Source: an uncultured Ruminococcus sp. (GTDB taxonomy: Bacteria; Bacillota; Clostridia; Oscillospirales; Ruminococcaceae). Taken from it: DNA of 32,753 bases. The stretch is taken from contig CAMWVV010000008.1 in assembly GCA_947177755.1 (NCBI GenBank), forward strand, positions 1 through 32,753, given 5' to 3'. The notes beneath the pieces were generated by a model. That model was not told where the DNA came from and did not search any database. It worked only from the letters and a program-made list of their open reading frames with translations. Numbering within the stretch: the stretch's first letter is position 1; every line of letters begins with the position of its first letter. Of the stretch, positions 631 to 31,081 are shown piece by piece. Made by a program: the position numbers and the translations under genes.

Positions 631-2583
631 ATGAATATGAGTGATGATGTAGCAGGAGCTACACTGCAAGTGAGCATGAAAGCAGCGGAAAAAGGAATAG
701 AACTGGGCAGTAAATTTGTTGATAAGGCAACTGATGATATTGCCCGACTTTTAAAGGCTCTGGGAAGATTAATCATCAGTAAAACAGATTTATCTGAAAT
801 AGGTGCAGGAAATACAAGTATCAAAAATCTTGTAAAAAATGCAAGAAAAAACGGTGATACGCTTTCGACTTCCGACAATGCTTTTTCAGAATCAGATATG
901 AAAATATTGCAGAAAAAAGCGAAACAATACGGCATACCGATTGCATTTACAGGTGACAAGGAAAATAATTATGCAAATGTCAGGACAAGTGATTTACCGA
1001 TTTTTCAGCGAATGTGTACTGATATGATGAAAGAAAAACTTGCTGAAAGACCGCAGGAACTGGGAAATTTCAAAGTCAAGGAATGGGAAGTACCATTCAT
1101 CACAAATGAGCTTAATAAATATGATTTATCTGCACAGTTTGGTAAAACCAAGAACGGTGAAAGTTTCTGCCTGTATGAAAAGGCTGACGAAAAGGCAATA
1201 ATGATTGCACGAAATGAATTTGTCAAGAAATGCGATGAACTAAAAGAAAATATGACTGTTACAAAAAATGAAAATTTTTATGTAATCAAAGATAAACATT
1301 CCGGAAAAGAGGTATCTTTTGACACAGTTCCGTCACGTGAAGAACTGTCGGAACAGATACAGAAAAACTTTGGATATGACCAGAATAAGGCTGACATAGC
1401 CTGTGCGAAATTCGGTGAAGAAAATCTGCAAGGCGAGGAAAAACAGAAGTTTTTCAGTAAAAATCCGCAGAATAAGTTTTCCAGAATTGATACAAATATC
1501 ACGATTCAGGGTGAGAGTATTTTTACAAAGGATTACACCTGTTGGCGAGTTACTCCAAAGACAGATAGCGTTCCGAGGATTGTTTTTCAGTCTGAAAACG
1601 GCAGATTTGCTGTGCTGAATCCCGAAAAACAGACAAAAAAGGATATGTATAAAACGTTGAATGAACAGCTGAACATTACTGATAAAGAGATAATGAACGC
1701 ACTTATTGATAAAGCAACAAAAGTATCAGATTACTATCAGGAACAGAACGTTAAGGAAATGAGTGATATACAGACGTTTGACGAATCAGAATTAATACTA
1801 CATCATTATGAACAGCTGCAAACTCATATAGATGAATCTAACAACGTTCATACCACTATACCGCAGACAGTTTCCAGTTTTGTTGAAAGACAGGACAAGG
1901 AGTATTTTTCTGTTGTAAGTACCATGGAGGGTAAAGAAAATATTTATAAAACAGATGGCACTGCGGAAGCAGAATATAAGCCAATATCAGACAGGCATGA
2001 ACTTATACTTTCTTTTTCAGATAAGAAAAATGCCCTGAATCAGCTTACGGAAATGTACAAAAAACAAGGTATTCCGGAAGATATTGCAAAGCAGATGTCT
2101 AAAGAAATTTTTGCAAAGGCTGAATCTCAAAGTCCGGAAAAAGTCCTACAAATAGAGGAAATCAGGGCAGAATCACAAACCGGAAAAACTGAAACAAAAG
2201 TAGTTGTGAAGTCAGGAAATCAGTCTGAAGAAATTGAAATTTCAGACCCTGAAAAAGCCATAAGTGAAATCACTGAAAAATTTGAAGTACCTGAAGCAGC
2301 AGCAATAATTGTAGTCGAAAAAGTCCAAGAAAATATCGAAAACAACGTTGAAGAAGAAAAAATTTCTGAATCAGATACAGAAGAAATACAGTCTGTAAAC
2401 GCACATGAAATTGATGATTTTCAGTATGATGAAATGGATATTCCGCCAATGCCTGACTGGATTCCCGATGATAATGATATTCCACCTGAAATGCCTGATT
2501 TCAGCGGAAATTTTGCGGATAACGTCCCTGATATTCCGGAAGCTCCTGAAATCAATATTCCGACTGGCAGAGGTGGCAGATAA
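631..2583 (+). CDS. PcfB/DUF3801-like conjugation protein with extended acidic/proline-rich C-terminus
   Basis: Immediately upstream of and overlapping virD4 (TAATG); N-terminal MSDDVAGATLQVSMKAAEKGIELGSKFVDKATDDIARLLKAL resembles DUF3801/PcfB; SD AGGAGG at 617-622. Confidence 0.7.
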   Translation: MNMSDDVAGATLQVSMKAAEKGIELGSKFVDKATDDIARLLKALGRLIISKTDLSEIGAGNTSIKNLVKNARKNGDTLSTSDNAFSESDMKILQKKAKQYGIPIAFTGDKENNYANVRTSDLPIFQRMCTDMMKEKLAERPQELGNFKVKEWEVPFITNELNKYDLSAQFGKTKNGESFCLYEKADEKAIMIARNEFVKKCDELKENMTVTKNENFYVIKDKHSGKEVSFDTVPSREELSEQIQKNFGYDQNKADIACAKFGEENLQGEEKQKFFSKNPQNKFSRIDTNITIQGESIFTKDYTCWRVTPKTDSVPRIVFQSENGRFAVLNPEKQTKKDMYKTLNEQLNITDKEIMNALIDKATKVSDYYQEQNVKEMSDIQTFDESELILHHYEQLQTHIDESNNVHTTIPQTVSSFVERQDKEYFSVVSTMEGKENIYKTDGTAEAEYKPISDRHELILSFSDKKNALNQLTEMYKKQGIPEDIAKQMSKEIFAKAESQSPEKVLQIEEIRAESQTGKTETKVVVKSGNQSEEIEISDPEKAISEITEKFEVPEAAAIIVVEKVQENIENNVEEEKISESDTEEIQSVNAHEIDDFQYDEMDIPPMPDWIPDDNDIPPEMPDFSGNFADNVPDIPEAPEINIPTGRGGR

Positions 2584-5033
2584 TGGCTAAGAAAGTCGGT
2601 GTCAGAAAAACAAGTAAATCAACACTTGTGATTTATGGAATTATAATTCTGCTGATAATTATTGTGTTCTGGTTTCTCGGAGCTTCTATGGATTTTGCAG
2701 TAAAACCAGACGGTAAAGTTGATATAAATCTGTTGGGAGACGGTTTCAACATAGTCATGAGTGACCCTGAAATATTATTTTCATCACTGAAAAATAAAGG
2801 CGGATATGCTCCGAAAATGCTATTTTTTGGCGTATGCAGTACAGGAATTTATGTACTTTACAAGTACACTGAGGATAAGAAACGTCTGCATCGCAAGGGA
2901 GTTGAACACGGTTCGGCAAAATGGGGTGACGATAAGGAAATGAAATCACTTGCTGAAAGCAAGGAAAAACCTCATGTTCAGCCGATTCTTACTTCTGATG
3001 GAAAGCGTGTTTTTGATAAAAAAGGCAACTTTGTAGGTGTTATTATCGACAACAATATTCTGCTTACAAAAGAAGTTTATCTGTCACTTAACTCAAAACA
3101 ACATCTTCTGAATCTGAATGTGCTTATCATCGGCGGTTCTGGTTCAGGTAAGACAAGATTTTTCGCAAAACCAAATATTATGCAGTTGAATACTTCATAT
3201 GTTACCACTGACCCAAAAGGCGAAATTTTGCAGTCTACTGGCAAAATGCTGACCGAAGCAGGATATGAAGTGCGTGTTCTGAATCTCATACAAATGGAAC
3301 ATTCTAACAACTATAATCCGTTTCATTATGTTTACGACTACAACGGTGATTTGTCACAGGATAACATTAAAAAAATGGTAAATGTTCTTTTCAAATCAAC
3401 AAAGGGCGACGGTGAAAAAGACGATTTCTGGAGTCAGAAAGGTCAGTCACTTCTTGAAGCAATTACATTTCTGCTTTTTGAAGAAAGTGAGTATAACGCT
3501 GAATTTGATGAAAACGGAAAAATTATTCCTGAAACAAGAGATACTTCACATCTTAATTTCTTTTCAGTCACAGAAAAAATGCGTAGACTGCAATATCCGC
3601 CACGTGGAAGTCAAGCACCTGACGGATTTTTCCTTGCAAGAAATCCTGATGAAAGTGAAGAAGATTTCCGTGCGAGGCAGTCAAAAGCATTTCTGTGTCC
3701 GCTTGATAAGGACTTCATAGAACTTGAAAAACGTAAGGGCGATACACTTGCAGGACGTTTGTACAAGGAAGTCCGCAACGCTCCGGAAGAAACGGGACAG
3801 TCATTCCTGTCAAGTGCGAACGTGAAAACTTTTATGTTCAATATGGACAACATGATGAATCTGACTTGCTGTGACAACATCAGACTTGAAACTTTGGGTG
3901 ACCGAAAAACAGCATTATTCCTGATTATTCCAGCAACTGATTCTACATATAACTTTCTTGTTGCTATGCTTTACACTCAGATGTTTGATGTTCTGGCGAA
4001 CCGTGCGAACTTCAAATATGGCGGAACACTGCCTGTTCATGTACGCTGTATTATGGACGAATTTGCGAACATTGGGCAAATTCCCGACTTTGATAAGGTA
4101 ATCGCCTTTGTTCGTTCTATGGGAATGTCACTTAATGTTATTGTTCAGAATCTTGCACAGTTAAAGGCAAGATATGAAAAAACTTGGGAAGTTATCACAG
4201 GTAACTGTGATAGTTTGCTGTTTCTTGGTGGTCAGGAGGAAAGCACTCTGAAATATATTTCCGAAGCTCTTGGTAAGGAAACAATTGACATCAGAGGATA
4301 TAACCGCACCAAAGGCAAGTCGCCCAGTACGTCCGAAAATAACAGTATTCTCGGACGTGAACTTATGCAACCAAATGAAGTTGCAACAATGCCCATCAGT
4401 GACTGTATCGTGCGGATACGTTCACATAATCCGTTTTACTGCTCCAAATATCCGATTGAAAAACACCCTAATTATAAATTTCTCGAAGATTACGACAAGG
4501 CAAATGCTTTTGATGTGAAAACTGTTCATGCCGTAACTTTACAGGAATTTACAGAAAAAAATAATAAAAAACAACCTGTTGAAATTGCAGATTCAAATTC
4601 AGAAAATCAGGAACAGGATAAGAAAATTGAAATAATTTTCAGTAAAAATGATATTCCTGAGATTGATTTTGAAACCTACGAAGAAGCTGAACTGTATGCA
4701 GAAGAAATTATCAGTGAAGCTTTTTCTGAGGAATATATTGATGATTCGCCTGAATTTGGAGAAATCTCTGAACTTGAATCATTCGATTTGGGCGAACTCA
4801 TCAGAACACAGGAGGAGGTGAATAATAATGAAGCTGATGAAGAAGTTTCTGCCATATCAGAGGAATCCAACATAGATGATACTGTTTGCTATGCAGACCC
4901 CGAAGAACTTGCTGAATCGTTTGAAGATGTAGAAAATCTGATAGAAGAAGCTTTTGCAGATACTACAGAATCATATGGTGAAGAATTTATGAGTGATTTA
5001 CTCGAAGACGATTACGGAATATTCGATGAATAA
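2583..5033 (+). CDS. virD4: VirD4/TraG-type type IV coupling ATPase
   Basis: N-terminal TM helices, Walker A-like IIGGSGSGKTRFFAKPN, TDPKGE, CIMDEFANIGQIPDF motif; long acidic C-terminal tail. Confidence 0.93.
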   Translation: MAKKVGVRKTSKSTLVIYGIIILLIIIVFWFLGASMDFAVKPDGKVDINLLGDGFNIVMSDPEILFSSLKNKGGYAPKMLFFGVCSTGIYVLYKYTEDKKRLHRKGVEHGSAKWGDDKEMKSLAESKEKPHVQPILTSDGKRVFDKKGNFVGVIIDNNILLTKEVYLSLNSKQHLLNLNVLIIGGSGSGKTRFFAKPNIMQLNTSYVTTDPKGEILQSTGKMLTEAGYEVRVLNLIQMEHSNNYNPFHYVYDYNGDLSQDNIKKMVNVLFKSTKGDGEKDDFWSQKGQSLLEAITFLLFEESEYNAEFDENGKIIPETRDTSHLNFFSVTEKMRRLQYPPRGSQAPDGFFLARNPDESEEDFRARQSKAFLCPLDKDFIELEKRKGDTLAGRLYKEVRNAPEETGQSFLSSANVKTFMFNMDNMMNLTCCDNIRLETLGDRKTALFLIIPATDSTYNFLVAMLYTQMFDVLANRANFKYGGTLPVHVRCIMDEFANIGQIPDFDKVIAFVRSMGMSLNVIVQNLAQLKARYEKTWEVITGNCDSLLFLGGQEESTLKYISEALGKETIDIRGYNRTKGKSPSTSENNSILGRELMQPNEVATMPISDCIVRIRSHNPFYCSKYPIEKHPNYKFLEDYDKANAFDVKTVHAVTLQEFTEKNNKKQPVEIADSNSENQEQDKKIEIIFSKNDIPEIDFETYEEAELYAEEIISEAFSEEYIDDSPEFGEISELESFDLGELIRTQEEVNNNEADEEVSAISEESNIDDTVCYADPEELAESFEDVENLIEEAFADTTESYGEEFMSDLLEDDYGIFDE

Positions 5034-17459: not shown

Positions 17460-17755
17460 ATCTGTACAGAAGAAGCAGACCTTATGGCGGCATTGTAACA
17501 CTTATTGCGCAGGATTATACGGATATTCTGAACAATGACGAAGGTCAGAGCTGTATCTGTAATGCAGAGTTTCTCATATTTTTGAATATGAGTCCGACTG
17601 ACTGTGAGAATATCAGAAAAATGTATCATCTTTCTGATGATATGATGAAACATATCCATGATGTTTCCTGTGGGCATGGACTTCTTGCTATCAATTCCGA
17701 TTGGATTCCGTTTGAGTCAAGAGATGCTTCGGAACACATTGAATCAAGAATATGA
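17456..17755 (+). pseudogene. C-terminal fragment of a second, divergent VirB4
   Basis: MNLYRRSRPYGGIVTLIAQDYTDILNN...FLIFLNMSPTDCENIRKMYHLSDDMMKHIHDVSCGHGLLAINSDWIPFES aligns with the C-terminus of the intact VirB4 (ELYKRARKWGGIPTGITQNVDDLL...); start overlaps topB stop (ATGA). Confidence 0.75.
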
Positions 17756-17756
17756 C

Positions 17757-18161
17757 AAGACTGAATCATCCCCAAATAACAAATTGTCTGTTCATGTACG
17801 CTTTATGCTTGATGAATTTGCTAACAGCGTGTATATTCCTGATTTAGAAAAACATCTTGCAGTATGTGGTTCTCACAATATAAGCGTAAATATTACATTA
17901 CAGTGTATTGAACAATTAAAAACGCTTTATAAATATTGGGATATTATACTGAATAATTGTGGCAGCATATTGTTCTTCGGCTGTCATTCAGTTGAAACAT
18001 TGAAATGCTTTTCTGACTTTATTGGTAACCAAATAAGTATTGACCAATTGAAAACAATTGATACTGACAAATGTGTTTTAAACATTCATGATATGCCGAC
18101 TTTTTACGGCAAAAAGTTTGATGTTGAGAATCATATTAACTATGACAAACTTGAAAAATAG
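17757..18161 (+). pseudogene. C-terminal fragment of a second, divergent VirD4
   Basis: NKLSVHVRFMLDEFANSVYIPDLEKHLAVCGSHNISVNITLQCIEQLKTLYKYWDIILNNCGSILFFGCHSVETLK aligns with VirD4 YGGTLPVHVRCIMDEFANIGQIPDFDKVIAFVRSMGMSLNVIVQNLAQLKARYEKTWEVITGNCDSLLFLGGQEESTLK. Confidence 0.8.
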
Positions 18162-19021: not shown

Positions 19022-22000
19022 ATGACAGAGAATGAGAAAATCAAAAAAGCCTTTACAGAGATACTTGATAACTACGATTGTTCATATGAAATCAATGACC
19101 TTGAAGCACTTCCGCATGACGTACAGATGCACATTGCGGAAGTATATTACCAAAGACCTTTTGATGAAGATAATCCAAATACTTACAGAATAAGCTATGA
19201 ACTTGACAGAGAGATTTTCAAGGCAATAAATATCAATGATTTCAGAAAGATAATCGGAGCGGACGAACTGAGACAGAATGGTATTGAAATTACTGATATA
19301 AAGACAACTTCATATATCGGAGGAGATTTCTATTTTGATAACTCTATGGATGATGATGATATACAGATTTCTTTCAGAGAAATTATAAAGGAAATTTCTT
19401 TTAAAAATTCCAATGATGAAAGTATGACATTTACAAGCTACAAAGATTTAAAAAAAGCACTTGATGACCCTGATAACAACTTTTTTCACAAGCCTGAAAC
19501 TGTTCAGAATACACCAGTAAGGAATTTCAGCAGTGCAGGAGCTGAAAAACTCCGTGAAATGACCGAAAGCAGTGATATGTACATTGATTTTCTGAAATTT
19601 CAGGGACGTGTGTTCAAGCACAATGCAAGTGTTGCACTTGAATTTTTCACGCAGAGACCGGAAACAAAATTCATCGCAACAAGAGAACAGTGGGCAAAAT
19701 CAAAGCGTACTGTCGCACAAGGAAGTGAAGCTATACGATTTGTTGATTCAGACGGCAAAAATACTGATTTTTATGACTTTTCACAGGTCGAGGAAACTAC
19801 TCCGCCATATCAGTGGACGATAAATAAAAGTAATGCAAATGCAATCAAATCACAGCTTGAAATACCTGAAAAAATGACGCTAATCAGCGGAGTTATAAAT
19901 TCTACCGTAAAGCCGGCACATATTACATCATGTATGTCTGCACTTGGAATACTGCCAAAGGATTATAAAGCGTTCAGCAAATCTTATTTAAACGCAATTC
20001 AGCTTGTAATTGCAGGTCGTCTTGAAATCGGCGGAAGTAATTTCAATATTCCGTCCGACCTGACAGCACTGAAAATGCTGAAAACTGAATCACAGAAGCT
20101 TGCATTTCTTACTTATGCTGCAAATACTGCCCGTGAATCACTCATGAAAATTGAAAGGGTAGCTCAGAATATAAACACAATGGAAAGGATTGAAAAAAAT
20201 GACTTACGAGAAATGGAAAACACTGACCCCGACAGAACAGAAAAACGTACCGGACGAGGAACTGCCATCAATACCTTCGGAATTACTGGAGAACAGCCTG
20301 ACAGAAGCGAAAGCAATGAGAGTGGACGGAATACTGGGTTGGGAAACAACACAGAAAGTCCCCAACGGAAAGAACACGAGATGGTTTCCGGAGTACAGAA
20401 TGAAGATGGTGGGCAGTCAGGAGTTCTGGTACAGGTTCGACCCGATATGCGGACTTTACAGCCTGAATCTGACAGAATTAGAGCCGTCGGTGGAGGAAGA
20501 ACCGATAGGGATTTATGGAATGAAGTGGATGACGTTCATGGAGGAGAATTATCCGCATCTGGTGGAGGAAATGAAGCTGTATCACAGGTATCTGACAGTA
20601 GCTCGTTCGGTGGAGAGGAACGCACAGGAGTACAGGGACTTACTGGACGACCAGTTCGCACAGGAGAATCCACGTCCGACGGACTTCGAGGAAGTGCTGA
20701 AATGGGAACAGGCGAAGATGTTTTACTCGGACAGCACAGTGATGAGGGAGATAGTTTTAGTTCCGGTGACGGAAGCATAGAAGAAAAACTAAATACAGTG
20801 TTTTCATCAGATGAAACAGAAAAAACGTCAACTGAAAAAGCTGACGTTTTTGTTTTGGATGATGAAAAAAGACTTGTGCAGATTACTGCTGAAATAGGTG
20901 AAAATCAAAAAAAATATGCTGACCTTATTAATAACGAGAATTATGAAGAAGCGACTAATATATCGCAGCAACTCACTGAACTTACTATTAAAGCAAAAGA
21001 ACTGAAAGAAAAAATACAGGCAAAACCTCTTACAAAAAAAGACGTAGACGTTATGCTTGAAATTAAACCACCGAGAAAATCCGTGCAGAATATGACCGAA
21101 ACTGATACAGCAAAAACAGTAAAACTTGAATCCATGCTTGGTAAGGGAATGGGCGAAAAATCACCATATGCTATGCGTAAAAAGGGTGGAAATAACTGGC
21201 GTAATGATGAGAGTAAAATGATAGATATTGTGGAAATTAAAACGCATAATATCTTGAAAAAGACAAAATTAGCTCGAAAAGATATAGACATTCAAAGTAT
21301 ACCAACAGGAACTTTCATAAATAATGATACAAACGCAGAAATTCCATTCGGACGAAACGGCATTGATGAAAGCATTGCTAAAGCAATTCAGGACAGCCGT
21401 AGTGTTTCTGTTGAGGCACGTATGAATGCACTTTATCATATGGAAGAAATCATCAGAGATTCTGTTTATTTTGACAGTCAGACTTCTGAATATCACCCTA
21501 AAAAATCCAAAAATAAATCTCCGAATACTATGTTTATGCATAGATTTTACGGAATAATGAAATATGATGATGATTTTTATCTAACAAATCTTGCTATTGA
21601 AGAATCATTCGATGCTGATGAAAATGGTGTCATTAAAGATACAAATAACAGTTTTTACAGCGTAAGGGACATAAAAATAACACCTGTTCAGCTACTGGGT
21701 TATCAAACCCACTCTCAAATGCCTCATGGCATCGAGGATGCTCCAACAAGTGTTAAAGTAAGTATACCACAATTATATCAGTTTGTCAAGTACTTTGATG
21801 AAAATTTTTTTGAAAATCCTAATGCTGTCGGACGTGAAGCAAGAGAAGCAGAACTTTATCAACAGGCTAAGTATGAAGATGCTCAGAACAATGACATAAA
21901 TCATACCGAAACGAAAAAACAGATTATTGAATTTGCAAAATCTAACAATATTTCTGTTCATGAAGCAATAAAGAAACTTGATGAACTTGAAGAAATATAT

Positions 22001-25000
22001 AACGGATTTCCTGCTTATGGAAAAACAAAGACAGACATAAAAAGAGCTAAAAATCCCTTTTTTGCTGAAAAAGTCAGAATAGCTTTTTCAGCAGTTTCTG
22101 AACAGGAAAATTACAGTGAAAATCAAAAACAATTCATGAAGGACTTAGAAACATTTACAATTACAAATAATGTTTCCGGTAATCCGATAGATGCAGCATT
22201 TCAAATGAACAGCAGATTCAAGGAAATTTACATAAGTGAAGAACAGGTTAATACCAATATATTTGACGGACATTTTTCGGCTGTAGCAGATAAACTTGTG
22301 AAAGAGTTCAAAACGCAAATGGAACTCCTGAAACAGGAAAAAGCACAGAAATCACCAACTGAAAAAGAAAAGAAATCAGCTCCTGAAACTGTCCAAATCG
22401 ACTTGGCAGAGGGAATTACAAATGCTCCGCAGATTCAGATAGATTCATCAGAACTTAAAATAGATATGGAGGAAATTCCGCAGATTATTTTCCTTGAAAC
22501 TGATAATTTAGACGGTAAATTTCATTTCAATGAAACTGTTTTCACTTACGATATTGAAAATGTTACTGTTAAAGTTCAGGAAAGTTCCGATAATCTGTAC
22601 GGCTTTGATAATCAGGAAACGCTTTCTGTTGAGGATGGTGCAGCACGAATCAGCGAATTACTGGAGCGTTATTCGGAGAAAAATATGCACATCAGTCTTG
22701 TGTATGAAAACGGCAAAAGTGAATCCCTCATGCAGTATATAAATCACGATTCAGATGATTATCCTATTATTAAAGCATCCCCCAACAAACAAGTACCGGA
22801 GTTTACAAATCCCAGAACTTGTACAGTGCAGGAGTATAACGATTTACTGGCAGAAGCAAGTAAAAATATTCCGGAGGGACAAGATTTTACACTGCATTTT
22901 AAAGTTGTTTTAAGTAACAAAAGGATATATGAGGAAAGGTTTAAATTAACAAAAGATACTGGAAAATTATCAGAAATTCTTCCTGCTTTTAAAAATGAGA
23001 AACAATCCGAAAGAGATTATTTAAAGGCTTTGAAAATGGTTTCAGACGAAGAAAATAGACTGACAAATTCAGAAACAATGGATGATTCAAATAATACCAA
23101 TACACCTGAAAATCCGTCTGAAAATACATCAGAAACTGTTGAAGAATCAGAGAGTCAGACTACAATCGAAAATGAGCAGAAATACCCATATGTATCTGTA
23201 AAAGCAGGTTGGAATTATGATAAATATATTGCACCTGAACTGGAAACAAGAGATTATACTGTTCCTGAATTTAATAATGCGTTGAAAAAACTGAGTGAAC
23301 GTTGGAATGGTGATGAATATGAAACAAAATCCGCTTTTGTCACACTTATAGTTCATCTGAGTGAAACAGAAAGTTTTGAAAAAAGACTATACGCAGAATA
23401 TCAGTTTGAAAGTCTTTCACAACGTCTTGATTATGATACTGACTGGCTTGATTCAGAAACAGAACTGCGAAAAGCTGTAGAAGAAGCCGAAAAACAGACA
23501 AAAACTTCTGGACTTACTGAAAAAGAAAAAGCTTTTTTAAGTGGTGAAATTACTCCGTTTATGGCTAAATCCGTGCTTTCGTGGGACGAAATTGAAAGCA
23601 TAGGATATATTATGTTTGAAAAAGGATATACAGAACGTTATGCTCCAAGGAAAAACTCAATATATGGAAACGGTCTGCATCAACCTGAGCTTTATGATAT
23701 AGTTAAACGTATGCACAAAAATGAAGATATTCGCAGAGAACTTGCCTTGTCATTGCTTGGAAATCAGCATACATTTACTACCACAAAGGGTAATGAGTTC
23801 AGCGTTGAATATGGAGAAGATTTTCTTACTGCAAAATATGGAAATGTGGAAAGACAAGTAGACTATATGGAACTTGGAAACTCTTTTCTTGTGTTGATAA
23901 ATAACGAATATAATAACATTGTTCACGACAGGACTGTGGAGGATTTACAATATGTCATTCCTAATCTAAGCACCGAAAATGCAGATAAACTTATCTCCGC
24001 CTTTGATAATTCACTAATGTACAATTGGCAGAATGATTTGCAGAAACAGCAGGAAATCAAACACTCACTTCATGATGTTCTTGGTGATGAGGAACTGACT
24101 GAAAAGGCTTTTGCTTCAATTGCTGAGATGAAGTATAATTACAAGCCTGATTTGAAGCAAAAACAGACTCAAGGTACATATAAAATTTATCAGCTTCCTG
24201 ATGATGAAAAGTATCACGGTATCCGCTTTACAGGTATGAAAACTCTTGAAAATGAAGGTATACAGCTTAATTTTGAGGATTATAACCTTGTGTATGAGGG
24301 TAAACTCTCTGAGTTTAAGGGTATTGATACTCTCGAAGATTTATACAAGCAGTTTAATATTGAACATCCCGAAGATTTTACAGGTCGTTCACTTTCTGTG
24401 AGTGATGTGATAGTAACAGAAACAGACGGAGAACAGAACGCATATTACTGTGATACTATGGGATTTACAGAAATGCCTGAATTTTTCTTGGAAAAATCCA
24501 TTTCTCAGGAAAATTCTGAATCTGAAAAAAACAACATGGATTTTGTCAAAGAAACTGTTTCAGAACGTCTGAAAAATTCTGAATACTTAAAATCCTCAGC
24601 AATTTCCAATACTCCGGAAGATTTCAGTTTTACATATCATGAAGAAACTGAACGTATTCTGATAGATATGCTTGGCGAAAATATAAGTGAACCTGAACAA
24701 GTCATTATAACACAGTTAATCAATGATACAGATTTGCAGAACAATACTTTCCAGTCTTTTATGGAAGAAATATATAATGATTTCCGTAAATCTAAACCTG
24801 AAAAATCTGCTGATGACTTGAAAATCGGAGACATTATCAGATATGACAGTGGAACTTGGCGAATAACTGATATAAAAGGTGACTTTTCACTTAATCTTGA
24901 AAACACTGATAAAAATTCTGTAATGCCTGTAAGGTCGTTCATCGGCAACTGGAAAGAGCAGCTTGTGAGGGACGGATTTGAATATGTTCCAGTAAAGGAA

Positions 25001-28000
25001 GTTATTGCACAAAAGCTATATGATACAGAGGTAAAATCTCAGGATTCTCAGGAGAAAAATATTACAGACGGTCAGATGTCGTTATTGGGAGATATTTCCG
25101 AAATATATCGAATTGTAACCTATTCCAATAATTCTGGTGCAGATGATAAGGAAGATTATACAACAATAAATGAAGCTATAGATGCAGGAAGACAGTACCT
25201 TGAAGATGATTATTACGACGGGTATGCAATTCTGAATACAGCAAAACACAGAATCGAACTGTATGGCGGTGAATTTCCCCGTGATGGAATATTCAGCGAA
25301 GAAGTATATGAAAACAGCGAGACATACGTTCCTACTCCGAATAACCCGACATCTGAAAAACTTTACAGGCGTTTTGCCAAAATGTTTCCTGATATTGTTT
25401 CAGGAGAACATACTTATGAACGTTATGGCAATGTTGGTGATGCGTATGAACCGCTTACAGTTGAACATCTGGGCGGAAATACCTATACTTTCATGACTTA
25501 TTTCATGCAGAACGGTGATTTAATGCGTGACCCTGATTTTGAGTTTGAACTTGACCACAAAAACAAGACTCTGAATATTCTGGAATATCAGCAAGACGGT
25601 ACTGTTTTCGGGACGATTTATCAGCGTGTTTACGATGAAAACAATAATCCTGATTTGAAACTGCTGTCTGCACTGGAAAAAAATTTTTTGCAGAATCTGA
25701 AAAATGCACATAATATGGAACGTCCGCTTACTTCTTACATTGATAAAAACGGAAATGAGTTCAATTCAGATAATGAGCCTGAAACTATTGAACCGGAAGA
25801 AGCTAAAATCAATGATAAATCGCCTGAATTACGTGAAGTTCTTAATGAATTTTCAGAAAAATATGGTCTTGGTGAACTGAATATTGAACCGAATCGTTAC
25901 AACTGGAAACTTATTGAAAAATTTGCTGATGGTACAGATTTTCCGCTTGGTGAAATTAACAGCCCTGAGTACGGAAAGCCGTTCACTTCTGATGAACTTA
26001 GAATTTCCCTTGAAGAATTTGAAAAAGCATCAAATGCAAGAAATCAGAATATTTCTGAAATTTACAGCAGACAATTAATTGCAGAAAGGTATGGCGGAGT
26101 TTCAGAACTTCCAAAAGTACAGAAAAATCTGCCCGAAATTACATATGCAAGCAGACCGTCTGAAAAAATAAGTAATAATATATCAGCAATCCGTGAAATG
26201 ATACGTCTTGAAAATGCCGAAAAATCGGGAGAAGAACTGTATGATAAAAGAAGTAACCAGTACAACAGCAAGCAGAATTCTGAATACCGTTTAAGACAAT
26301 ATTGCGGTTGGGGCGGTCTTTCACAGGTGTTTGATGAACGATTCAAACAGTATGATTATCGCCGTCAGGAACTGCAATCACTGCTTACTCCCGAAGAATA
26401 TGCAGAAGCAAAGGCAAGCTCTCTGAATGCCCATTATACGCCACAAATCATTATTGATGCAATGTACAAAGCAGTAAAAAATATGGATTTGCCACGTGAT
26501 GCAAAGATACTTGAACCAGCTTGTGGTACTGGAAATTTTATCAGCAGACTTCCTCACAGTTTCAGTGATGCTGAGGTTACAGGCGTTGAACTGGACAACA
26601 TTACGGCAAGAATTGCAAAACAGATTAATCGTGACAATGAAAAAGTTCAGATAATCAACAGCGGATTTGAAAATTCTGGTCTTGCTAACAATAGGTTTGA
26701 CCTTGCAATAGGAAATGTTCCTTTTGGTGACTACAATATGAACGACCCTGATTATGTTCAGGACTGGCGAATACATGACGCATTTTTCAGAAAAGCACTT
26801 GATAAAGTTGCATCAGGCGGTGTTGTAGCGTTTGTAACATCAACTGGTACTATGGATAAATCCAATCCGAAAATCAGGGAATATCTTGCAACACAGGCTG
26901 AATTGATAGGAGCTGTCAGACTTCCAAATAACGCATTTTCAGATGCAGGAACAGGTGTGCCGTCAGACATTATTTTCCTTAAAAAATGTGAAAATCCATT
27001 GCCTGCACATGAGCCAAAACCTGACTGGTGCTATACGATACCTGATAAGAACGGATTAAAAATCAATTCATATTTCGTACAGAATCCGCAGATGGTACTT
27101 GGTGAAATGAAGAAAACAACGTTTCAGGACAGGCTTACCTGTGAACCATTTGAGGGTGCAGACCTTGAAAAGCAGCTGAACGAAGCTATTAAAAATCTCA
27201 ATGCAAAAATTACTGTTACAAAGCGTGAAAAGGCAGTAAATGAACAGCGTGGAAACATTGAGCCTTGGGGGAAAAATTTTACTTTCCAGTTAAAAGATGA
27301 CAAAGTTTATTATCGTAACGGTGGTAAAATGGAAGAAATAAAATGTACTCAAACTGAAAATGAAATGATAAAAAGACTTTGTGAAATCCGTGATGTGACC
27401 CGTAAATTGATTGATTTACAGAAAACATCAGTACAGGATTCAGAGCTGATACCAGTGCGTGAAAGCCTTAATAAACTCTATGACGAGTACAGGGCAGAAC
27501 ATGGTGAATTATCTAATAAATCAGTAAAAAGACTGTTTGGCAGTGATTCTGATTATCCAATTTTGCAGTCACTTGAAAATTACGACAAAGAAACAGAAAA
27601 TGTCGAAAAAGCTGATATTTTCTTCCGTCGTACCGTTAATCCAATGCTTGAAATCAATTCAGTTGAAAGTGTGGAAGAAGCTTTGCAGGTATCACTTGAC
27701 CAGAAAGGTAAACCTGATATTCCGTACATGGCAATTTTGCTTGATAAATCACCTGAGAGTGTTTGTAATGAACTTCTTGAAAAAGGACATATATTCATCG
27801 ACCCTGAAAAAGAACTGCCTGACAAGCCGTTTTCTGGTGTTGTTGAACGCAGCGAATATCTTTCGGGAAACGTCCGCATGAAGATGACAATTGCTGAAGA
27901 ATATGCAAAATCAAATCCTGAATACAAGCAGAATGTTGATGCTTTAAAAACTGTAATTCCTGAAGATATAAAAGCTGACGAAATATCAGTGCAAATGGGC

Positions 28001-31000
28001 TGTGCATGGATTGAACCACAGGATTATACTGCTTTTCTGGAGCATTTAAGTGGGCGTACAGGATATAATTCACGTTCCTGCGATGTTAGTTATTCCCCGA
28101 CCACAGGCGAATTTGATGTACTTAATGCAAAAAGTAAAAAAGACCTGAATTTGAATGAAACAACTACTTATGGCACGGCTGATTTAAATATGTATCAGAT
28201 TGCAGAAAAGATTCTGAATCAGCGACGCATTGCTGTAAAGCGTGAAAAAATAAATCCAAAAGACCCGACGAAAACTGTTACCAGAACAGACCCTAAAGCT
28301 ACAAAAATTGCACTTGAAAAGGCAAAACTTATCCGTGCAGAATTTCAGAAATGGATTTTTGCGGACGACAAAAGAAAAGCTAAATATGAACGCAAATACA
28401 ACGATATATTCAACAGCATTGTCGGACGTAATTATGACGGTTCTCACCTTACTTTTTCAGGTATGGCAAATGATTTCACACTTCGTCCACATCAGAAAAA
28501 CTGCGTTGCAAGGGCGATTTATGGTGGAAATACGCTTGCTGCCCATGTTGTTGGTGCAGGAAAATCAGCCGTAATTTTCACGTCCGTAATGAAGAAAAAA
28601 GAACTCGGACTGATAAATAAAGCGTGTGTTGTTGTGCCGAAAGCACTCACGGAACAGACTGCTAACGAGTGGCGTAGAGTGTATCCTGATGCAAAGATTC
28701 TAACTGTAACAAATGATGATTTATCAAATGAAACAAAAAGAAATCTTTTTACTGCAAAAGTTGCAACAGGCTCTTATGATGCGGTAATTCTTTCGCAGGA
28801 ACAGTTTGAAAAAATTCCTATGTCAAAACAGTACAGAATTAATTTCATGCAGAAAGAACTTGACAGTCTTGAGGATATGCTTCGTGAAAAGAAAATTGAA
28901 AATCATGGCAAAAAAGATTATTCAGTAAAGGCAATTGAAAAATCAAAAAAGCAGTTGGAAGCAAAACTTGAAAAACTTCTAAATCCCAAAAGTGCATCAA
29001 AAGCAAAAGACGATTTACTTGAATTTGAACAGCTCGGATTTGATTATCTCGTCTGTGATGAAGCACACGCTTATAAAAATGGCTTTGTTCAGACCAAAAT
29101 GACAAATGTAGCCGGAGTCACTACAAAACCGTCAGGCAGAGCAGAAGATATGCAGATGAAAACTGATTACTTCAATGAACAACTCGGACAGGGACACATT
29201 TTATTTGCTACCGGAACGCCTGTTTCCAACTCGATGACGGAGCTTTATGTGATGACACGATATTTACGTCCTGACTTGCTGAAACAGGCGGGAGTTGAGC
29301 GTTTTGACGACTGGGCAGCAACTTTCGGAAACGTTGTAACCAAAAATCAGCAGACGGCGGATGGCACACTGAAAATGAAAACAAGTTTTGCAAGTTTTGC
29401 TAATCTGCCGGAACTCATGGCAATGTATAAGGAATTTACGGACGTTCAGAGTGCCGAAAAACTCAATCTTCCACGTCCGGAGCTGAAAACCGGAAAACCA
29501 CAGATAATCAGCGTTCCAGCAACTCCTGAGCAAAAAATGTACGTGCGTGAACTTGCAGAAAGAGCCAAAGCAATTGAGGAGGGTATAGTAGACCCTTATG
29601 AGGATAACCACCTTAAACTGACAAGCGAAGCACGTCTTATAGGTCTCGGAAACAATGCAGTAAAGGCACTTTATGAAAAGCGTGATGAAGAACTGCCGTA
29701 TGATTTTATTGATGACAAAAACAGTAAAGTTGATAAATGCGTTGAAAAAGTTGCAGAAATTTATGAAAAAACAAATGATACAAAAGGTGTACAGATTATC
29801 TTTTCGGACGTTGCTTTAAATTCGGACAACGGAAATTTTTCAGTTTATGACTACATAAAAGACGAACTTGTTGCAAAGGGAATACCTGAAGATGAAATTA
29901 TTTTCGCTCCGAAATCAGATTCAAAGGAACGTGAAAATATTTTCCGTGATATAAATAATTCAAAGTATCGTGTGGTAATTGCAAGTACCGGAACTCTTGG
30001 TACTGGTGCAAATATTCAGCAAAATCTGTATGCATTGCATCATATCGACGTACCGTGGAAACCGTCAGATTTTGAACAGCGTGAGGGCAGAATTTTACGT
30101 CAGGGCAATAAAAACAAGGAAGTCGAAATCTTCAATTATGTCACTGAGGGAACGCTCGACAGCTATCTTTATCAGACCGTAGTCAACAAGGCTCGTTTCA
30201 TCGCACAGCTTCTGGACAATAAATCTCCGGCAAGAGTTTCTGAGGACTGTGACGAAAAAGTGCTTACATACGGCGAATTTCAGGCAGCAGCCGAAGGTAA
30301 TCCTGATTTTAAGAGACGTATTGAAGTATCAAATGAAATTGTTGAACTTGCAATGCTGAAGAAAGAGTATGCCCATGAAACGGCTGTTACAAAGGAAAAA
30401 ATTGAAAAACTCCCAGAAGAAATCAAACTGAAAAAAGAAATGCTGTCACACGTCCAGAATGACCGAAAATCAGCCGCAAAAATTCAAGAACTTGCTCTTT
30501 CAAATCCGACCAAAAATAGTAATTATGTTGTGATGACAAAAGAAAAAGTCAATGAATATCTTTTGAAAATGGCACAGTCAAAACTTGCAAATCCTGAAAA
30601 AGAAATACCGTCCGTGAACATAAATAATTTCAAGGTTTCGGTTTATTTTGACAAGCAGAATAATGAAGTGAGATTCAGTGTCCAGGGTGAAAGTACATAT
30701 TCATGTGCTGCTGGAACTGCTGAAAATCAGGACAATTATCAGCGTCTGACCAATCTTTTTGAAAAGATGATACCTAAAAAGGAACAGGAAATTATAAAGG
30801 AAATTTCGGCACTTGAAGAAAATCTTGAACAGGCAAAAAAACGTGTGGAAATACCGTTTGCACAGGAAAAAGAACTTGAAGAAAAGATACAGGAATTTCA
30901 GGAACTCGAAGAAAAACTGTCCGGACTTTCAGTGCAGGAAGATGTTATACTTGACCCAGAAGAAGAACCGATTATCGAAACATCAGAAGAAAAATCAGCA

Positions 31001-31081
31001 CGTGAAAAAATTTATAATGTTGATGATGACGACTATCAACCGACAGAAGATGATGACAATTCAAGAAATATCAGACGTTAA
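19022..31081 (+). CDS. Giant polyvalent protein: ArdC-like N-terminal region, disordered linker, multiple LPD/DUF modules, N6-adenine methylase domain, SNF2/DEAH helicase domain (DarB-like architecture)
   Basis: Uninterrupted 4019 codons; methylase motifs ILEPACGTGNF and LAIGNVPFGDY; helicase motifs VVGAGKSAV, CDEAHAYKN, GTLGTGANIQ, DFEQREGRILRQGN; N-terminal FKHNASVALEFFTQRPETKFIATREQW; SD AAGGAGG. Confidence 0.9.
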   Translation: MTENEKIKKAFTEILDNYDCSYEINDLEALPHDVQMHIAEVYYQRPFDEDNPNTYRISYELDREIFKAININDFRKIIGADELRQNGIEITDIKTTSYIGGDFYFDNSMDDDDIQISFREIIKEISFKNSNDESMTFTSYKDLKKALDDPDNNFFHKPETVQNTPVRNFSSAGAEKLREMTESSDMYIDFLKFQGRVFKHNASVALEFFTQRPETKFIATREQWAKSKRTVAQGSEAIRFVDSDGKNTDFYDFSQVEETTPPYQWTINKSNANAIKSQLEIPEKMTLISGVINSTVKPAHITSCMSALGILPKDYKAFSKSYLNAIQLVIAGRLEIGGSNFNIPSDLTALKMLKTESQKLAFLTYAANTARESLMKIERVAQNINTMERIEKNDLREMENTDPDRTEKRTGRGTAINTFGITGEQPDRSESNESGRNTGLGNNTESPQRKEHEMVSGVQNEDGGQSGVLVQVRPDMRTLQPESDRIRAVGGGRTDRDLWNEVDDVHGGELSASGGGNEAVSQVSDSSSFGGEERTGVQGLTGRPVRTGESTSDGLRGSAEMGTGEDVLLGQHSDEGDSFSSGDGSIEEKLNTVFSSDETEKTSTEKADVFVLDDEKRLVQITAEIGENQKKYADLINNENYEEATNISQQLTELTIKAKELKEKIQAKPLTKKDVDVMLEIKPPRKSVQNMTETDTAKTVKLESMLGKGMGEKSPYAMRKKGGNNWRNDESKMIDIVEIKTHNILKKTKLARKDIDIQSIPTGTFINNDTNAEIPFGRNGIDESIAKAIQDSRSVSVEARMNALYHMEEIIRDSVYFDSQTSEYHPKKSKNKSPNTMFMHRFYGIMKYDDDFYLTNLAIEESFDADENGVIKDTNNSFYSVRDIKITPVQLLGYQTHSQMPHGIEDAPTSVKVSIPQLYQFVKYFDENFFENPNAVGREAREAELYQQAKYEDAQNNDINHTETKKQIIEFAKSNNISVHEAIKKLDELEEIYNGFPAYGKTKTDIKRAKNPFFAEKVRIAFSAVSEQENYSENQKQFMKDLETFTITNNVSGNPIDAAFQMNSRFKEIYISEEQVNTNIFDGHFSAVADKLVKEFKTQMELLKQEKAQKSPTEKEKKSAPETVQIDLAEGITNAPQIQIDSSELKIDMEEIPQIIFLETDNLDGKFHFNETVFTYDIENVTVKVQESSDNLYGFDNQETLSVEDGAARISELLERYSEKNMHISLVYENGKSESLMQYINHDSDDYPIIKASPNKQVPEFTNPRTCTVQEYNDLLAEASKNIPEGQDFTLHFKVVLSNKRIYEERFKLTKDTGKLSEILPAFKNEKQSERDYLKALKMVSDEENRLTNSETMDDSNNTNTPENPSENTSETVEESESQTTIENEQKYPYVSVKAGWNYDKYIAPELETRDYTVPEFNNALKKLSERWNGDEYETKSAFVTLIVHLSETESFEKRLYAEYQFESLSQRLDYDTDWLDSETELRKAVEEAEKQTKTSGLTEKEKAFLSGEITPFMAKSVLSWDEIESIGYIMFEKGYTERYAPRKNSIYGNGLHQPELYDIVKRMHKNEDIRRELALSLLGNQHTFTTTKGNEFSVEYGEDFLTAKYGNVERQVDYMELGNSFLVLINNEYNNIVHDRTVEDLQYVIPNLSTENADKLISAFDNSLMYNWQNDLQKQQEIKHSLHDVLGDEELTEKAFASIAEMKYNYKPDLKQKQTQGTYKIYQLPDDEKYHGIRFTGMKTLENEGIQLNFEDYNLVYEGKLSEFKGIDTLEDLYKQFNIEHPEDFTGRSLSVSDVIVTETDGEQNAYYCDTMGFTEMPEFFLEKSISQENSESEKNNMDFVKETVSERLKNSEYLKSSAISNTPEDFSFTYHEETERILIDMLGENISEPEQVIITQLINDTDLQNNTFQSFMEEIYNDFRKSKPEKSADDLKIGDIIRYDSGTWRITDIKGDFSLNLENTDKNSVMPVRSFIGNWKEQLVRDGFEYVPVKEVIAQKLYDTEVKSQDSQEKNITDGQMSLLGDISEIYRIVTYSNNSGADDKEDYTTINEAIDAGRQYLEDDYYDGYAILNTAKHRIELYGGEFPRDGIFSEEVYENSETYVPTPNNPTSEKLYRRFAKMFPDIVSGEHTYERYGNVGDAYEPLTVEHLGGNTYTFMTYFMQNGDLMRDPDFEFELDHKNKTLNILEYQQDGTVFGTIYQRVYDENNNPDLKLLSALEKNFLQNLKNAHNMERPLTSYIDKNGNEFNSDNEPETIEPEEAKINDKSPELREVLNEFSEKYGLGELNIEPNRYNWKLIEKFADGTDFPLGEINSPEYGKPFTSDELRISLEEFEKASNARNQNISEIYSRQLIAERYGGVSELPKVQKNLPEITYASRPSEKISNNISAIREMIRLENAEKSGEELYDKRSNQYNSKQNSEYRLRQYCGWGGLSQVFDERFKQYDYRRQELQSLLTPEEYAEAKASSLNAHYTPQIIIDAMYKAVKNMDLPRDAKILEPACGTGNFISRLPHSFSDAEVTGVELDNITARIAKQINRDNEKVQIINSGFENSGLANNRFDLAIGNVPFGDYNMNDPDYVQDWRIHDAFFRKALDKVASGGVVAFVTSTGTMDKSNPKIREYLATQAELIGAVRLPNNAFSDAGTGVPSDIIFLKKCENPLPAHEPKPDWCYTIPDKNGLKINSYFVQNPQMVLGEMKKTTFQDRLTCEPFEGADLEKQLNEAIKNLNAKITVTKREKAVNEQRGNIEPWGKNFTFQLKDDKVYYRNGGKMEEIKCTQTENEMIKRLCEIRDVTRKLIDLQKTSVQDSELIPVRESLNKLYDEYRAEHGELSNKSVKRLFGSDSDYPILQSLENYDKETENVEKADIFFRRTVNPMLEINSVESVEEALQVSLDQKGKPDIPYMAILLDKSPESVCNELLEKGHIFIDPEKELPDKPFSGVVERSEYLSGNVRMKMTIAEEYAKSNPEYKQNVDALKTVIPEDIKADEISVQMGCAWIEPQDYTAFLEHLSGRTGYNSRSCDVSYSPTTGEFDVLNAKSKKDLNLNETTTYGTADLNMYQIAEKILNQRRIAVKREKINPKDPTKTVTRTDPKATKIALEKAKLIRAEFQKWIFADDKRKAKYERKYNDIFNSIVGRNYDGSHLTFSGMANDFTLRPHQKNCVARAIYGGNTLAAHVVGAGKSAVIFTSVMKKKELGLINKACVVVPKALTEQTANEWRRVYPDAKILTVTNDDLSNETKRNLFTAKVATGSYDAVILSQEQFEKIPMSKQYRINFMQKELDSLEDMLREKKIENHGKKDYSVKAIEKSKKQLEAKLEKLLNPKSASKAKDDLLEFEQLGFDYLVCDEAHAYKNGFVQTKMTNVAGVTTKPSGRAEDMQMKTDYFNEQLGQGHILFATGTPVSNSMTELYVMTRYLRPDLLKQAGVERFDDWAATFGNVVTKNQQTADGTLKMKTSFASFANLPELMAMYKEFTDVQSAEKLNLPRPELKTGKPQIISVPATPEQKMYVRELAERAKAIEEGIVDPYEDNHLKLTSEARLIGLGNNAVKALYEKRDEELPYDFIDDKNSKVDKCVEKVAEIYEKTNDTKGVQIIFSDVALNSDNGNFSVYDYIKDELVAKGIPEDEIIFAPKSDSKERENIFRDINNSKYRVVIASTGTLGTGANIQQNLYALHHIDVPWKPSDFEQREGRILRQGNKNKEVEIFNYVTEGTLDSYLYQTVVNKARFIAQLLDNKSPARVSEDCDEKVLTYGEFQAAAEGNPDFKRRIEVSNEIVELAMLKKEYAHETAVTKEKIEKLPEEIKLKKEMLSHVQNDRKSAAKIQELALSNPTKNSNYVVMTKEKVNEYLLKMAQSKLANPEKEIPSVNINNFKVSVYFDKQNNEVRFSVQGESTYSCAAGTAENQDNYQRLTNLFEKMIPKKEQEIIKEISALEENLEQAKKRVEIPFAQEKELEEKIQEFQELEEKLSGLSVQEDVILDPEEEPIIETSEEKSAREKIYNVDDDDYQPTEDDDNSRNIRR
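20199..20780 (+). CDS. TnpV-like protein overprinted in the +1 frame within the giant ORF
   Basis: ATG 20199 (in-frame TTG at 20190), SD-like GGAAAGG at 20182-20188; protein MTYEKWKTLTPTEQKNVPDEELPSI...PIGIYGMKWMTFMEENYPHLVEEMKLYHRYLTVARSVERNAQEYRDLLDDQFAQENPRP... resembles TnpV (PLGKYGRMR..YLKEHR...L....LY.HL.EI...A) in layout. Confidence 0.72.
   Translation: MTYEKWKTLTPTEQKNVPDEELPSIPSELLENSLTEAKAMRVDGILGWETTQKVPNGKNTRWFPEYRMKMVGSQEFWYRFDPICGLYSLNLTELEPSVEEEPIGIYGMKWMTFMEENYPHLVEEMKLYHRYLTVARSVERNAQEYRDLLDDQFAQENPRPTDFEEVLKWEQAKMFYSDSTVMREIVLVPVTEA

Follow-up and report, generated by a model that had tools for sequence, protein, structure and literature searches.

Genomic Layout of the Nested Gene

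The window studied here is a whole stretch of 32,753 nucleotides from an uncultured Ruminococcus sp. Its gene set is that of a conjugative element (VirD4/TraG, PrgI, a VirB4-like ATPase, a topoisomerase and a Toprim/DUF3991 protein), and these conjugation genes provide the mobile-element setting of the small gene considered below. The gene at 2583-5033 is partially duplicated at 17658-18161, where 167 aa of a VirD4/TraG coupling protein are encoded. An earlier note, made without any database search, had claimed that an ORF at 20190/20199-20780 lies wholly inside a giant ORF in another frame. Both the coordinates and the frame were confirmed: the inner ORF is entirely contained within the ORF 19022-31081 and is read in the +1 frame, one base ahead of the giant frame. 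The features of the locus are as follows:

19022..31081, + strand: giant polyvalent-protein gene, host of tnpV (4019 aa; LPD3, YodL, DUF6908, methyltransferase and SNF2/helicase domains)
19484..20173, + strand: ArdC-N-like N-terminal domain of the giant protein (alignment; weak PF08401 matches; Listeria homologues named 'ArdC-like' by NCBI)
20184..20189, + strand: putative Shine-Dalgarno sequence of tnpV, AAAGGA, 9 nt before ATG 20199 (read as Glu-Arg in the giant frame, with an AGG codon)
20199..20780, + strand: tnpV, 193 aa plus stop, out of frame in the giant gene (PF14198 match, homologues, tnpV-frame codon periodicity)
20201..20779, + strand: giant-frame reading of the overlap, a hydrophilic linker rich in G/R/S/D/E (composition)
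21305..21625, + strand: LPD3 domain of the giant protein (PF18798)
24179..24484, + strand: YodL domain of the giant protein (PF14191, E 3.6e-26)
26507..26719, + strand: methyltransferase domain of the giant protein (PF13649)
28475..30106, + strand: SNF2/SF2 helicase region of the giant protein (PF04851, PF00176, PF00271)

The product has 196 aa when read from TTG 20190 and 193 aa from ATG 20199; judged from sequence alone, the ATG, with AAAGGA 9 nt upstream, is the better start. The GC content of the overlap reaches 49.5%, versus 36.4% in the remainder of the giant gene, and the local G+C counts previously reported (31 in 20401-20460 and 17 in 20881-20940) are correct. When the codons of the giant gene are shuffled among synonyms, a +1 run of at least 201 codons appears by chance in 0.75% of cases (p = 0.0075), the longest run outside the overlap being 117. 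ORF length by itself is thus weak evidence for tnpV, and we did not rely on it.

Identity of the TnpV Protein

The identification of the inner product as TnpV, also put forward in the earlier note, held. In a profile search, it matched Pfam TnpV (PF14198) with 30.2 bits for a curated cut-off of 27 (residues 95-189 of 196), while its close homologues are 84-93% identical and have both frames open. It is because of this match and of the comparison of homologues, rather than of ORF length, that the overlap can be considered settled. Like the known members of the family (Tn4451 and related IMEs), the window protein scores above the curated cut-off, but those members are free-standing, whereas the window gene is embedded out of frame and its protein features an additional N-terminal part of ~75 aa. 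Neither NCBIfam nor PADLOC returned a match, and no relatives turned up when viral contigs were scanned with five individual TnpV proteins. Two of the loci collected (L130 and L205) match TnpV only weakly and carry little weight.

A structural model of the 193-aa protein, computed from a 5-sequence alignment, is mediocre (pLDDT 62); it has a beta part and four helices, and the TnpV core is predicted, with low confidence, to be helical. This weak model found no fold match in the PDB or in a viral library, and no known DNA-binding fold was matched. Matches of the TnpV profile to NEDD8 in the PDB (E 0.04-0.1) were judged to be due to chance.

Taxonomic Distribution of Embedded and Free-Standing tnpV

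Homologues were collected from the family and phylum to which the genome of the window belongs, from GTDB genomes and from plasmids; TnpV was absent from the control genomes. They fall into two classes, 66 distinct embedded genes and 52 distinct stand-alone genes. The 66 embedded loci span many genera of Clostridia and Bacilli, and tnpV always lies in the +1 frame, in nearly all cases just past the ArdC-N-like domain, with the giant frame continuing as a long ORF that starts about 700-1400 nt upstream where the contig allows. The two frames share about 350-580 nt, and the third frame of tnpV genes holds about 13 stops per gene. Finished plasmids, those of Ruminococcus albus 7 among them, bear embedded tnpV in both Clostridia and Bacilli. 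The cultured strains whose plasmids carry the pair belong to R. albus 7 (pRUMAL02), Listeria seeligeri (p60), Carnobacterium maltaromaticum, Enterococcus faecalis, Virgibacillus, Cohnella and Monoglobus, while a sequence search found the L. monocytogenes type on about 95 Listeria plasmid records (frames checked in three).

A search model of the giant N-terminal domain recovered 50 full-length relatives, all of which (50/50) have a +1-frame tnpV shortly downstream; this proportion is biased, since the model was itself built from tnpV-bearing loci. Distant giants devoid of tnpV do exist (L208, on an E. faecalis plasmid, and L157). The giant of L208 (1901 aa) has neither tnpV nor a long linker, its methylase following the N-terminal domain after a short stretch. 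This locus is a possible outgroup for dating the embedding.

Several individual loci deserve a brief comment. The window's own genome bears a second embedded tnpV (L098, contig C11, 2810-3301), only 16% identical and hosted by a different giant gene (3565 aa), as well as a free-standing copy (L001, contig C113) with one in-frame TGA. L035 comes from a contig labelled Alistipes senegalensis (Bacteroidota), yet its element is nearly the same as those of Ruminococcus; the contig is probably misbinned, or else the element was transferred recently. Finally, a Salmonella IncHI2A plasmid has a free-standing tnpV (L202) in the vicinity of aac(6')-aph(2''), and a sequence search also found this tnpV on plasmids of Klebsiella, Enterobacter and Citrobacter.

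Evidence for Two Coding Frames

Giant-frame stops are absent from the 66 embedded tnpV genes (0), versus 1-14 per gene (mean 6.1) in the 52 stand-alone genes. Since the embedded set is defined by an open giant frame, this zero is partly due to selection of the loci; the control is the stand-alone set, in which no gene is stop-free. In a set of 43 embedded loci, no giant-frame stop was observed, against 139 expected after synonymous shuffling of the tnpV codons (about 3 per gene), 390 expected with the codon usage of the flanks and 581 in the third frame. The shuffle is conservative, because it retains the depletion of T at third positions of tnpV (9.6% in embedded genes vs. 23.4% in free genes).

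The start signals tell the same two-frame story. Across these 43 loci, tnpV always begins with ATG (43/43) and is preceded by a Shine-Dalgarno sequence in 42, with an initiation-type spacing in nearly all, compared to 3.4% of 2791 control ATGs taken in the +1 frame of the remaining giants. As the tnpV start was picked among several candidates, the Shine-Dalgarno count is somewhat inflated. The giant-frame arginine codon lying under this motif is AGG in 37 of the 43 loci vs. 11% elsewhere (p = 3.6e-29).

Substitutions within the overlap fall on third positions of tnpV, i.e., first positions of the giant frame, whereas outside the overlap it is the third positions of the giant frame that change. 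In each of the 30 alignable pairs, TnpV shows higher conservation than the giant peptide (mean 79% vs. 64%), although these pairs share members and are not independent. The window and L035 differ by 74 changes, of which 43 are synonymous in TnpV and only 5 in the giant frame; random changes would yield 21% and 26%, respectively. Moreover, distances between TnpV sequences correlate with those between giant N-termini (64 loci, r = 0.90, the highest value among 999 permutations being 0.15), which fits one old association rather than repeated insertion.

Altogether, constraint at the level of residues sits in the tnpV frame, while the giant frame is constrained to remain open and hydrophilic; selection on the latter is documented by the absence of stops and by hydrophilic composition, not by residue conservation. 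What defines a nested gene (an inner ORF wholly inside an outer one, in another frame and with its own start signal) is found here, as is selection on both frames, both on the evidence of the sequences alone. The earlier claims of a real gene within a gene, of a constrained tnpV frame and of a permissive hydrophilic linker in the giant frame thus held: both frames are open in homologues, a Shine-Dalgarno sequence is present, and constraint is stronger in the tnpV frame. None of the observations named in advance as refutations was made, as a profile match was found, stops are not frequent in homologues, and the giant frame is not the only one under constraint.

The Giant Polyvalent Protein and Its Linker

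The giant protein combines a DNA methylase, a SWI2/SNF2 ATPase and LPD domains in a single chain, and thereby qualifies as a polyvalent protein in the sense used for conjugative elements (Iyer et al. 2017, PMC5512222). It shares with the proteins described there YodL, LPD, the DNA methylase and the SWI2/SNF2 ATPase in one chain, with a possible ArdC-N head as well, but the text of that paper mentions neither tnpV nor overlapping genes. According to the alignment, the ArdC-N-like domain immediately precedes tnpV in nearly all homologues, whereas PF08401 (ArdC-N) matches only 8 of 29 members, and weakly (best E 3.8e-4), the window copy being below the cut-off (E 0.095). An AlphaFold model of the giant N-terminus was too poor (pLDDT 40) and was discarded.

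Over the 43 loci, the overlap read in the giant frame has a mean hydropathy of -1.23, versus -0.56 in the flanks, and is rich in Gly (15% vs. 5.5%), while Phe, Tyr, Trp and Cys are nearly absent.

Further downstream, the giant protein is mosaic (window 20940-23100, aa about 640-1360). While the TnpV proteins of the window and of L034 are 93% identical, their giant proteins are only about 50% identical over aa 640-960 and cannot be aligned over aa 960-1360, after which similarity returns to 80-100%. This looks like a possible exchange of modules downstream of tnpV. In Listeria, the giant frame ends at 501 aa in L. monocytogenes pLM1-2cUG1 and pCFSAN038814 (L209 and L210), versus a 2017-aa form in L. 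welshimeri pLIS49 (L215), yet tnpV is identical in all three.

Embedded or Free Ancestor

When 117 TnpV cores are placed in a tree, embedded sequences are scattered throughout, while 38 free ones form a single nested clade (support 98/96) and several free singletons are found elsewhere. Parsimony requires 12 events if only escapes (embedded to stand-alone) are allowed and 18 if only captures are, but the state of the root is undecided with equal costs. Escape is weakly preferred over capture, and the earlier proposal that the tnpV frame is the ancestral one was not shown.

Alternative Explanations

The alternative that survives best concerns function and is compatible with the nesting itself. 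TnpV has been postulated to be an Xis-like excisionase for Tn4451 (PMC3158075), in which case its position within the giant gene would be incidental. Besides this proposal, the presence of stand-alone tnpV genes near recombinases and relaxases speaks in its favour. However, embedded tnpV occurs in Listeria, Enterococcus and Carnobacterium on replicating plasmids, which argues against an excisionase-only role, tnpV tracks the ArdC-like N-terminus, and the model, though weak, resembles no known DNA-binding protein. An excisionase would be expected to adopt a fold of the winged-helix type and to be required for excision; the low-confidence model shows a beta part with four helices. We regard this explanation as unlikely.

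Two other hypotheses appear very unlikely. According to the first, tnpV is real but the giant ORF is a chance read-through, the ArdC-N gene and the helicase gene being separate and the overlap untranslated in the giant frame. Annotation pipelines indeed sometimes split the giant, as on pEFM9-2 (TnpV followed by an N-truncated SNF2 gene), but pKUB3006-2, whose tnpV stretch is identical, has the same giant annotated as one CDS, and the contrast in giant-frame stops between embedded and stand-alone genes goes against it. According to the second, programmed frameshifting into the tnpV frame yields an ArdC-N/TnpV fusion and no free TnpV. The frames do overlap and a run of A immediately precedes the ATG in the window; however, only 6 of 43 loci have a homopolymer run of at least 6 close to the start, and it is because slippery runs are not conserved that such an entry is improbable. 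The universal ATG and the near-universal Shine-Dalgarno sequence and initiation-type spacing also oppose it, as does the fact that stand-alone tnpV has its own start.

Finally, the idea that only the giant ORF codes, the +1 ORF being a by-product of a low-complexity linker, can draw on an ORF length that is only mildly unusual, but is all but excluded by the Pfam match, the homology to free-standing tnpV genes, the Shine-Dalgarno sequences at tnpV starts and the tnpV-frame conservation seen in every pair.

Proposed Mechanism and Significance

Nesting, a fixed frame, a start signal, constraint on two frames and long co-inheritance are established by the sequences. That tnpV and the giant gene form a true nested pair is very likely, even if the production of both proteins is inferred in the absence of expression data. 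In our proposal, the mRNA of the ArdC-N/methylase/SNF2 polyvalent protein would carry an internal Shine-Dalgarno sequence and ATG, at which ribosomes would initiate to make free TnpV in the +1 frame, both proteins being made from one message. The same DNA would then encode the conserved TnpV core in one frame and, in the other, a hydrophilic linker after the ArdC-N-like head, presumably kept free of stops by selection, chiefly because tnpV third positions avoid T when a GA-, AA- or AG- codon follows. As for TnpV itself, its most likely role, a weak inference without functional evidence, would be that of a small accessory protein acting with the ArdC-type protein in the transfer or establishment of the incoming element. 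A shared role of this kind is suggested because tnpV is tied to the ArdC-like end, and it might in turn explain, just as tentatively, why TnpV is tied to the giant gene on both plasmids and integrated elements.

A bolder reading can be put forward, in which the nesting in conjugative elements is ancient and Bacillota-wide. TnpV would then be the obligate nested companion of the ArdC-type polyvalent protein: one message would yield both, and the two would work together in the recipient cell. The free tnpV genes of Tn4451-type transposons would descend from embedded copies that escaped. Taken jointly, these propositions would go slightly further than we are ready to believe.

Returning to the nested pair itself, it resembles Rz/Rz1 of phage lambda (PMC5295617) in that a small gene with its own start lies wholly inside a larger one in another frame, but differs by its host, which encodes a protein of several domains and about 500-4200 aa and belongs to conjugative elements, and by the existence of free genes in the tnpV family, which serve as a natural control. 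With the long overlapping genes of E. coli O157:H7 (PMC9927249), it shares a long overlap in bacteria; those are antisense, whereas tnpV and the giant gene are on the same strand and conserved across classes of Bacillota. Only a few long bacterial overlaps are fully established (PMC9927249), and few same-strand ones are so well supported, with many independent loci and free-standing relatives as a control. The overlap of tnpV and the giant gene was not found described in the open-access literature that we searched, which leaves out most subscription journals, so that novelty means not found rather than proven. The pair offers a natural system for studying evolution in two frames, and connects TnpV, a transposon protein so far without explanation, with a polyvalent protein linked to transfer. 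The nesting is also directly testable, since an ATG-to-ACG change at the tnpV start would leave the giant protein unaltered.

The nesting further explains why one of the two genes, either TnpV or the SNF2/ArdC gene in its full length, is lost when conjugative elements are annotated. In the public records that we checked, one or the other is annotated in full, never both. For Cohnella and Monoglobus, TnpV is listed without any giant gene, though the giant frame is open over 2086 and 2193 aa, respectively; the plasmid gene table being incomplete, this is a soft point. On E. faecalis plasmids with an identical tnpV stretch, there is either one 'SNF2-related' gene (pKUB3006-2) or 'TnpV' and a shortened SNF2 gene (pEFM9-2), while Listeria records mostly read 'ArdC-like', with 'TnpV' in a few.
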